From positions 1 through 36,906 of the forward strand of contig JAFRIU010000002.1 in assembly GCA_017432645.1 (NCBI GenBank): a DNA stretch of 36,906 nt, read 5' to 3'. Made by a program: the position numbers and the translations under genes. Origin of the DNA: Bacilli bacterium (GTDB lineage: Bacteria > Bacillota_I > Bacilli_A > RF39 > UBA660). The notes beneath the pieces were generated by a model. The model had not been told where the DNA came from, ran no database searches, and saw nothing but the letters and a program-made list of their open reading frames with translations. Shown piece by piece: positions 31,183 through 33,993 of the stretch. Each line of letters starts with the position of its first letter. Within the stretch, counting starts at the first letter, position 1.

Positions 31183-31211
31183 TTGACAAAAAAGAAAAGT
31201 TATGATATAAT
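31183..31211 (+). promoter_or_regulatory. Consensus promoter of the riboswitch transcript
   Basis: TTGACA (31183-31188), 17-bp spacer ending in TGA, TATAAT (31206-31211): a perfect sigma-A promoter with extended -10, the strongest in the window. Transcription should start near 31218, just before the riboswitch. Confidence 0.9.
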
Positions 31212-31218
31212 TATACTC

Positions 31219-31332
31219 GTCAAAAGGGAGTAGTTCTGAAAAACTGAATTCGTCAACCGAAATTATTTTCCGGATTCAGTAATATTTTTAGATATTGAAC
31301 AAGACTAATGATAATATAAGTCTTGTTTTTTT
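31219..31332 (+). promoter_or_regulatory. yybP-ykoY-type Mn2+ riboswitch with intrinsic terminator
   Basis: The leader shows the conserved elements of the yybP-ykoY aptamer in order: GGGAGTAG (31226-31233), stem ACTGAAT/ATTCAGT (31243-31249 and 31274-31280) enclosing TCGTCAACCG and CCGG, a small AATAT/ATATT stem, then ACAAGAC (31299-31305), which in known members closes the aptamer. The ACAAGACT bases are also the 5' arm of a terminator (31299-31306 with 31319-31326, then U7). Such overlap gives an ON switch: Mn2+ keeps those bases in the aptamer and prevents termination. The assignment rests on motif agreement; the first G of the usual GGGGAGUAG is absent. Confidence 0.82.
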
Positions 31333-31375
31333 GTATTTCAAAAAAACAAGAAAGAAAAAGAAAGGAAAAATATAC

Positions 31376-32080
31376 ATGAAAAGAAAGCAAACTGATTATA
31401 ATCCTATTAAGGCAATCATAGGATTACTTCCACTTACCCTTATTGCTCTTATTTTAAACAAAATTATGGGATTAACGGGACTAGATGGAGTAAAGGAAAA
31501 AGATTCACATACAATCATTCCAAAAACTACTTATGAGCAAGTTTTAGAAAGTGAACCAGAATTTATGGAAAAAGGAAAACATGCTATCGCAATTAAAAGT
31601 AACTTTAAAGAACAAGAGCAACAACAATTACCTGTACCTGATGGCTATGAACTAAAAGGAATTAATTATGATATCGGACTCAGCCATACTATACTATATG
31701 TAAATACAGAGACTGTCCTTTGTTACCCTACTGGAGAAACAGAAACTGGTGAATTTGTTTACCAAGATATTTGTACACCTGTTAGTGGCAAAAAAGAAAA
31801 AGAAGAACACACTCAAGATAGAGATTTTGAAATAGGAGAACACGTTATAATAGCTCCTATTCACGTAGAATCAACTATGCAATTTGAATTTCATGAAGGA
31901 TATGAAGTTATCGATATTGATGCTTATGCAGGAAGTGGTGGTTCATATGATGGATGCATTGTATATAAAAATACGGTACCAGTTAGAGTTCATGCCAATA
32001 AAAGAAATAAAAAAACAAGTGAATGGATATACGATCAATTTGGAACTCCTATTGAAAAAGAAAAAATAAAAACTCGTTAG
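31376..32080 (+). CDS. Riboswitch-controlled membrane protein with two internal repeats, unknown function
   Basis: I do not recognise this protein. The 234 residues comprise one N-terminal membrane helix (about 11-30), a polar stalk (about 40-85) and two related beta-rich repeats, about 90-142 and 175-230. Aligned marks are GYEL/GYEV, N-Y-D-I/I-D-A-Y, LYVNTETV/VYKNTVPV, E-F-V-Y-Q-D/E-W-I-Y-D-Q and TPV-K-E-K/TPI-E-K-E-K. The repeats should lie outside the membrane. Genes under yybP-ykoY riboswitches are normally Mn2+ exporters (MntP, UPF0016, P-type ATPases); this one lacks transporter features. A role in metal homeostasis is inferred only from the riboswitch. ATG after AAAGGA; an upstream frame start lies inside the terminator and is rejected. 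Confidence 0.82.
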   Translation: MKRKQTDYNPIKAIIGLLPLTLIALILNKIMGLTGLDGVKEKDSHTIIPKTTYEQVLESEPEFMEKGKHAIAIKSNFKEQEQQQLPVPDGYELKGINYDIGLSHTILYVNTETVLCYPTGETETGEFVYQDICTPVSGKKEKEEHTQDRDFEIGEHVIIAPIHVESTMQFEFHEGYEVIDIDAYAGSGGSYDGCIVYKNTVPVRVHANKRNKKTSEWIYDQFGTPIEKEKIKTR

Positions 32081-32093
32081 TTTCTTAACACAC

Positions 32094-32128
32094 AAAAAAC
32101 AAGCATTTTTAAATAATGCTTGTTTTTT
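32094..32128. terminator. Bidirectional terminator
   Basis: ACAAGCATT/AATGCTTGT (32099-32107 and 32115-32123) flanked by A and T runs on the two sides; it ends the plus-strand riboswitch gene and the minus-strand acyl-CoA synthetase gene. Confidence 0.85.
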
Positions 32129-33993
32129 TATTCTTTTTTTAGACCATCTAATAGTTCATCGCTACTACTTTCATCCTCTACTTGTTCTAGCAATTCTTCG
32201 CTCTTTACAAATGGTTTATCCTTTTTCTTCATTTCTTCTTCATGAATTAAAACATTATAAGCAATCTTTCCTACCAATGTTTTAGGAAGTTCATCTCTAA
32301 ATTCATATTCATATGGCCATGAGAAACGTGCTAAATTTTTTTCTACTAATTCTTTAATAGATGCTAAAAGCTCTGGAGTCTCTTTTACTCCATCTTTTAA
32401 TACCAAAAAGGCTTTTGCAACCGTTACCTTATAAGGATGTGGAATTCCAATAACACAAGACATCTTAACATCCGGATGAGAATCGATAACATTTTCGATG
32501 TTATTTGGATAAACACAATAACCAGAAGTAATAATCATTCTCTTTAAACGACCTTTAAAATAAATAAATCCATCCTTATCCATACTTCCTTCATCACCAG
32601 TATGCAACCAAATACGTCCATCTTTATGTTTTCTTAACGTTTGTCTAGTCTCTCTATGATTATGAATGTATCCTTTCATAACCGTTGGTCCATGAATAAC
32701 AATTTCTCCATTCATACCACAAGGAACTTCTTTTTCCGTACCTTCTTCTACTATCTTATAATAGGTATCCGGATAAGGAATACCAATACTTCCTGGACGA
32801 TAGTAATTTAAGGGAGTAAAGCAACTAGCAGCACAACATTCCGTTAGACCATACCCTTCGCGAATCGTGGTTGGAGAATGATGCATTTCTAACCATTCAT
32901 CAAAACGTTTCTTTAAATCAGGCGACAAACTATCTCCTCCTGAAATAACACAACTTAAATAAGATAAATTCATATGAGAAAAATTCTTATTACCAAGCAT
33001 AGCTTCAAATAAAGTAGGAACCCCTACTATAACATTTGGTTCATACTGTTTCATAATCTTATCAAATGTTTTAGCATTAAACTGGGGAAGTAAAATACTA
33101 GTACCTCCAAAATACTGAACACAATGAATACAAACAGAAAGCCCAAATCCATGAAAAATTGTCATAATAGCTAAAACTTTATCTTTATCTCTCAAACAAG
33201 CAACATGTTCAAAATTTTGCATAGCGGAAGCATTTAAATTTAAATTAGTTAATTTTACTCCTTTAGGAGTACCAGTTGTGCCTCCAGAATAAAGAATAGC
33301 AGCTACTTCTTTTCCTTTATAATCGTCATCAATCTCTTTTGTATAGCCCTTTCCCAAGCGAATAAATTCTTTCCATCCTATCTTTTTACCTTTATTTTTC
33401 TTGTCCTCTACATTTTCTTTACCATCTTTATTCAAATAATGAATAGGATTTAAAGACAGAAGTGTCTTAGAAACTGTAGATGGTGTTTGAGTTGCAATAT
33501 ACAAAGATTTAATAAGAGGTGTCATAGATTCACTAACACTTACTGTAATCACTTTTTTTAACTTTGTTTCTTTCAAAATACGTGCGACTTTATCATAAGC
33601 AAAATCAATACATAATAACCATTCTGTCCTAGAAATATTTAAATAATGCTTAATTTCATTTTCTGCAGACAATGGATGAATCATAGAAGCAATTGCACCA
33701 ATTTTATTTACTGCATAAAAAGTAATGATACCTTCCGGAGTATTTGGCATACAAATACTAACAACATCCTTATGTTTTACACCAATTGCTTTTAAAGCTC
33801 TAGCCACCTCATCTATCTGTTTTAGAAATTCATGATAAGTCTTTTTATTTCCATAGTAATTATAACTAATATTATTTAAATGACGACTAGCTGTATACTC
33901 AATTAATTTATAAGCTGAAAAATCAGGATACTCCAAATGTTCTTTTTCATTACCATAAAACTTTATCCAAGGAGCGTGTATACTTTTCTTCAT
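32128..33993 (-). CDS. Acyl-CoA synthetase (AMP-forming, FadD-like)
   Basis: ANL-superfamily enzyme that activates a carboxylic acid, probably a fatty acid, with ATP and CoA. The 621-residue product has the P-loop ILYSGGTTGTPKG, the A5 motif YGLTE followed by C-C-A-A, LHTGDEG, the hinge region YFKGRLKRMIITSGYCVYP, and a C-terminal lysine in PKTLVGKIAYN. It is longer than typical FadD (about 560) because of a Lys-rich insertion (about 195-215) and an acidic tail. The ATG at 33991-33993 with GGTGG upstream is chosen. An extended -10 TGATAAAAT lies upstream. The substrate cannot be read from sequence. Confidence 0.88.
   Translation of the reverse strand: MKKSIHAPWIKFYGNEKEHLEYPDFSAYKLIEYTASRHLNNISYNYYGNKKTYHEFLKQIDEVARALKAIGVKHKDVVSICMPNTPEGIITFYAVNKIGAIASMIHPLSAENEIKHYLNISRTEWLLCIDFAYDKVARILKETKLKKVITVSVSESMTPLIKSLYIATQTPSTVSKTLLSLNPIHYLNKDGKENVEDKKNKGKKIGWKEFIRLGKGYTKEIDDDYKGKEVAAILYSGGTTGTPKGVKLTNLNLNASAMQNFEHVACLRDKDKVLAIMTIFHGFGLSVCIHCVQYFGGTSILLPQFNAKTFDKIMKQYEPNVIVGVPTLFEAMLGNKNFSHMNLSYLSCVISGGDSLSPDLKKRFDEWLEMHHSPTTIREGYGLTECCAASCFTPLNYYRPGSIGIPYPDTYYKIVEEGTEKEVPCGMNGEIVIHGPTVMKGYIHNHRETRQTLRKHKDGRIWLHTGDEGSMDKDGFIYFKGRLKRMIITSGYCVYPNNIENVIDSHPDVKMSCVIGIPHPYKVTVAKAFLVLKDGVKETPELLASIKELVEKNLARFSWPYEYEFRDELPKTLVGKIAYNVLIHEEEMKKKDKPFVKSEELLEQVEDESSSDELLDGLKKE

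Follow-up and report, generated by a model that had tools for sequence, protein, structure and literature searches.

A leader RNA of the yybP-ykoY type, probably a Mn2+ riboswitch in three-way-junction form, ahead of a membrane-anchored repeat protein in the Bacilli

The window examined here is the whole 36,906-nucleotide stretch of contig JAFRIU010000002.1 from a Bacilli bacterium (GCA_017432645.1). Within positions 31183-31345 of its forward strand lie a promoter, a structured RNA and a terminator that overlaps the RNA, all of them 5' of a gene for a 234-residue protein (Table 1). As a correction to the preliminary description, the coding region itself starts at 31376. The gene forms a single-gene unit, with its left neighbour divergent and its right neighbour convergent; from the proteins that they encode, we take these neighbours to be ruvA and an acyl-CoA ligase gene, respectively.

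Table 1. Features of the leader RNA and of the gene downstream, in window coordinates.
Feature	Position	Strand	Basis
Promoter	31183..31211	+	exact consensus -35 and -10
Aptamer, yybP-ykoY type, three-way-junction form (P2 absent, P4 present)	31219..31312	+	R3 match, R2 covariation
P1 5' strand (partner 31305-31312; two internal A-A mismatches)	31219..31226	+	sequence reading
L1 5' strand GGAGUAG (3' strand CAAGA, 31300-31304)	31227..31233	+	family conservation
P1.2 5' strand UUC (partner GAA, 31297-31299)	31234..31236	+	family alignment
Linker UGAAAA where arm P2 would be	31237..31242	+	comparison with sister copies
P3 (31243-31252 with 31271-31280), with L3 bulge UCAACC (31253-31258) and P3b GAAA/UUUC (31259-31262 with 31267-31270)	31243..31280	+	
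Adenosine in the position of Mn2+-sensing A41 of L. lactis and A48 of X. oryzae	31255..31255	+	third base of L3
P4 hairpin AAUAU/AUAUU	31281..31296	+	sequence reading, hairpin scan
Intrinsic terminator; 5' arm GAACAAGACU is the 3' strand of aptamer P1.2, L1 and P1	31297..31332	+	folds
Second hairpin; terminator 3' arm and T-run (31321-31333) pair perfectly with 31339-31351	31321..31351	+	sequence
Predicted membrane-anchored protein of 234 aa	31376..32080	+	ORF, start ATG 31376
First 'GEH' repeat domain, degenerate	31553..31816	+	profile A4, 52.7 bits
Second 'GEH' repeat domain	31817..32077	+	profile A4, 96.7 bits; domain itself a row of A4
Terminator 3' of the gene (AACAAGCATT...AATGCTTGTTTTTTT)	32098..32132	+	seen in sequence

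The promoter had been called a consensus one, and we agree: the -35 box (TTGACA, 31183-31188) and the -10 box (TATAAT, 31206-31211) are both exact, of the sigma-70 type, and separated by a spacer of 17 nt. Because the -10 box ends 13-15 nt 5' of GGGAGUAG in most copies of the element (56 of the 65 that have a clear promoter), the transcript should begin at helix 1 (P1) of the aptamer, and for the window copy we would expect transcription to start near 31218-31219.

The encoded protein consists of one N-terminal hydrophobic helix and two outer repeats of about 87 residues that are 27% identical to each other, in keeping with its earlier description as a single-pass membrane protein with an outer repeat domain. 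It is not a transporter, and it is as unfamiliar as had been claimed: the 234-residue sequence has no match in Pfam or NCBIfam, and the repeat domain has none among the solved structures of the PDB, whether by sequence or by fold. An AlphaFold model of the protein has a mean pLDDT of 75, and the second repeat is modelled as all-beta with a mean pLDDT of 89.7. The two-domain model bears a weak Foldseek likeness to DUF7352 phage proteins (E 0.004, target TM-score 0.57), which is not a family assignment, given an identity of about 10%, no sequence match and no matching solved structure. With profile A4, the GEH domain was found in 21 of 291 genomes of the family; in this sample the RNA lies upstream of about six of some 24 A4 gene loci, with further cases in the genus. 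Inspection of homologues and their upstream regions, as proposed at the outset, was productive, with the protein family recurring behind the RNA in about ten other genomes. In one arrangement (L003/L190) the RNA, a GEH lipoprotein gene and a Na/Ca exchanger gene follow one another on one strand.

The aptamer pieces that the preliminary description recognised are indeed present, namely GGGAGUAG (31226-31233), UCGUCA and CCGG around L3 (31250-31273), and GAACAAGA (31297-31304). Set against 200 dinucleotide shuffles, the leader folds better than all, or almost all, of them (z -3.6 and -3.5). A search with RF00080, put forward earlier as the check on class membership and as part of the refuting condition, failed to find the element: there was no match in the window or in the whole genome up to E<=10, and the 45-bit gathering score was not reached. 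Runs over the genus and the class at the gathering score and at E<=10 likewise gave no window match, and no locus in 198 genomes of the class reached the cut-off. This silence is not decisive for membership, because the same tool at the same cut-off also misses the validated mntP and alx leaders of E. coli. We discarded the low-scoring Rfam matches in the window (mir-4679, FasX, PK-HAV and others) as chance matches on AT-rich hairpins.

The class call is backed instead by two covariance models of our own. R2 was built from an alignment of 23 elements of the window's own genus. For R3 we used 12 leaders, all from families other than the window's and most of them preceding ordinary exporters. 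R3 was aligned by way of R2, so that the two models have their structure in common and the sequences are independent. Being structure-aware, R3 establishes homology to Mn/Ca exporter leaders with a single match in the window (31211-31319, 57.4 bits, E=2.1e-12), and it recovered nearly all of the approximately 70 relatives described below. R2, for its part, recovered 12 of 12 RF00080-like loci from other families of the class (E 1e-16 to 6e-6); the genes after those loci, where readable, are mostly those for a P-type ATPase, a Na/Ca exchanger or MntP, and also for a CitMHS-like transporter. Both models found the E. coli leaders as well: mntP with 49.7 bits by R3 and E=3e-8 by R2, and alx, at its expected place, with 23.7 bits by R3 and 13.4 bits by R2. 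The alx leader, which is of the yybP-ykoY type and responds to Mn2+ and to alkaline pH, is longer than the window leader and stands before an exporter gene.

These matches bear on the question of whether the leader could be a different cis-acting RNA, such as a protein-binding leader or a conserved attenuator, that merely resembles yybP-ykoY. Such an RNA would fit with the very varied downstream genes and with the silence of RF00080, but the models match exporter leaders, among them the validated mntP leader of E. coli, in both directions, and the ion-site bases are conserved; we regard this explanation as very improbable.

A loose pattern search showed the element, together with a promoter 5' and a terminator 3' of it, to occur across much of the genus. 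By R2, it is present in 22 of 39 genomes of the genus and in 28 of 291 genomes of the family, in 21 of 150 genera, and the window's own genome holds six copies. Chance resemblance is excluded, since about 70 distinct loci carry the motif and show compensatory base changes in it. In the alignment of 23, 87% of cells are paired and 23 of 29 pairs show compensatory change, with 0 of 500 shuffles as high; both-side changes number 96, against 31+-4.5 in shuffles, and the signal collapses when the pairing is slid by one column. The covariation extends to P1 (84% of cells paired, with compensatory change at 4 of its 7 pairs over the family), to P1.2, where the family swaps UUC/GAA with UCC/GGA (98.6% paired), and to P3 (90% paired, 8 of 10 pairs compensatory, including a change from G-C to A-U adjoining L3).

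Duplicated copies were also seen. On contig C3 of the window's own genome (L102), two near-identical copies lie about 600 nt apart, each having a promoter-like sequence of its own; the genes that follow them encode a small membrane protein and an SPFH protein. At L047, a degenerate second copy (1623-1729, 33 bits) directly follows the first and extends into a coding frame.

The solved aptamers have a four-way junction with both P2 and P4. In the window copy P4 is present and P2 is missing, which makes the junction three-way instead, and for this reason we file the element as a variant. Most relatives also seem to be without one junction arm: clear P2 and P4 were found together in 5 of 70 elements by a simple hairpin scan, which undercounts short arms, and some copies retain P2 without P4. 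The P2-less sister copies carry a conserved linker, UGAAA or UUAAA. The missing arm, together with the A-A mismatches that weaken P1, might be taken as the mark of a decayed, non-functional relict, but P2-less copies make up a conserved subclass with a constant linker, and L1, L3, P3, P4, the promoter and the terminator of the window copy are all intact, which leaves the idea of a relict scarcely credible. One P2-less subclass, with UCC/GGA and a UUAAA-like linker, comprises L048, L053, L056, L060, L062, L080, L085 and L120; seven of these eight loci are 5' of a nucleoside 2-deoxyribosyltransferase-like gene (PF15891), and for L053 no downstream gene was picked up.

In the solved aptamers, Mn2+ is bound via N7 of an invariable L3 adenosine, within UCA41 in L. 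lactis and ACA48 in X. oryzae (PMC6754395). L3 of the window copy has UCA (31253-31255) in the same place as these two triplets, and an adenosine occupies the Mn-site position in 64 of 70 relatives. L1 is likewise complete: each position of its 5' strand is identical in 69-70 of 70 elements, and its 3' strand, CAAGA, hardly varies among the 70 relatives, the exceptions usually reading CGAGA. The window RNA and the known Mn2+ riboswitches of the yybP-ykoY class (RF00080; E. coli mntP, L. lactis yoaB) thus have in common P1, L1, P1.2, P3 and the L3 adenosine, in addition to mutual covariance-model matches between class and family and an aptamer-terminator overlap like that of known transcriptional ON switches. 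It differs from them in falling under the RF00080 cut-off, in being without P2, and in the mostly non-exporter genes that follow it in its family.

The Mn-selective adenosine is naturally changed to U in L049, L072, L076 and L077, to G in L101 and to C in L071. Downstream of four of these loci (L049, L076, L077 and L071) are genes of a single lipoprotein-like family that has an HAHKY/HLHKY motif.

The overlapping terminator noted earlier is borne out by the folds. GAACAAGACU (31297-31306), part of the 3' strand of the aptamer, pairs with AGUCUUGUUU (31319-31328), and a T-run follows to 31332. In 65 of 68 relatives the left arm of the terminator is the CAAGAC strand of the aptamer, with at least 9 pairs, as against 2.4% of shuffles. 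Because the aptamer and the terminator are mutually exclusive, the ligand should permit read-through, as predicted for a transcriptional ON switch. A ribosome site (AAAGGA, 31361-31366) lies 3' of the second hairpin. In 29 of 68 copies, compared with 16% in shuffles, the right arm of the terminator can pair again, over at least 9 pairs, with a segment directly 5' of the ribosome site; copies ahead of exporters show this weakly or not at all.

Among the 68 first genes of the family, about 5 encode exporters (three Na/Ca exchangers and two P-type Ca ATPases) and about 63 do not. The family of the window protein accounts for about 11 loci; the other groups are SPFH proteins (band 7; some with NfeD), a nucleoside deoxyribosyltransferase-like family, another lipoprotein family and many uncharacterised proteins. 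None of the six copies in the window's own genome precedes an exporter: apart from the window gene, they stand before the SPFH protein and small membrane protein on C3, a GEH lipoprotein followed by secA on C20, and short uncharacterised genes on C9 and C38. The one Na/Ca exchanger gene of that genome has no such RNA, a PF00690 ATPase was not found there, and hardly any of the Na/Ca exchangers and P-type ATPases examined in the genus have the RNA. The window gene encodes neither a metal exporter nor a TerC protein; such a gene is usual for the class and not required.

Many of the downstream proteins in this group of uncultured gut bacteria are membrane or surface proteins, an envelope bias that is not significant. 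Of the 68 first genes, 29 code for an N-terminal hydrophobic segment; the window has 7 such ORFs among 28 (P=0.16), and other ORFs have 145 among 452. We rejected the notion of a purely envelope regulon.

Non-exporter targets would follow if the signal were something other than Mn2+ alone. The same aptamer fold, in this lineage or in sub-clades of it, might answer mainly to another divalent ion, or to pH together with Mn2+; the scarcity of exporters among the first genes, the many exchangers and ATPases of the genus that are without the RNA, and the six relatives with U, G or C at the Mn-selective position, four of them before one lipoprotein-like family, all point in that direction, and a review expects yybP variants of altered ion specificity behind odd gene neighbours (PMC7266159). 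However, the window copy retains the adenosine as well as the L1 and L3 bases, and judged by model score, the members that precede classical Mn/Ca exporters are this RNA too. On balance, we consider a different signal unlikely.

We think it likely that the leader is a yybP-ykoY (Mn2+) riboswitch with a three-way junction, working as a transcriptional ON switch. In its favour are the RNA homology, the conserved ion-site bases, the covarying helices, the terminator overlap and the position of the promoter, all of which are shown here, and also the family members ahead of Na/Ca exchangers and P-type Ca ATPases, including the L003/L190 arrangement. What counts against it is the lack of an RF00080 match, the absence of P2, the two A-A mismatches in P1, the mostly non-exporter targets, and the Na/Ca exchanger of the window's own genome that is without such an RNA. 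Mn2+ is the most likely ligand. Transcription would start at P1; with little ligand, GAACAAGACU would pair with AGUCUUGUUU, the terminator would form and the transcript would stop near 31332. At high intracellular Mn2+, L1 and L3 would dock around the ion, with A31255 providing the selective contact, and in this ligand-bound state P1 and P1.2 would hold GAACAAGAC, so that no terminator forms and the membrane-anchored protein is made. The protein may be an envelope factor made at high Mn2+. A link between Mn2+ and envelope upkeep is already known in another species, and it is plausible that the non-exporters form part of a Mn2+ response.

We also put forward a broader proposal, which taken as a whole is rather doubtful: that in this large family of uncultured Bacilli a Mn2+ riboswitch fold was reshaped, with the loss of an arm and sometimes of the Mn-selective base, and spread to a new gene set that includes small enzymes, SPFH/NfeD proteins and uncharacterised membrane proteins and lipoproteins, and that an ion other than Mn2+ is sensed by some copies.

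The standard Rfam model misses the Mn2+-type riboswitches described here, and the evidence suggests that the missing arm and the strict cut-off are the reason; we supply a covariance model that detects them. Their position would link a nameless protein family, as well as SPFH/NfeD proteins, to metal sensing. The natural variants of the ion site, in which A is changed to U, G or C, offer material for testing whether, as has been proposed in print, some yybP RNAs respond to other metals.
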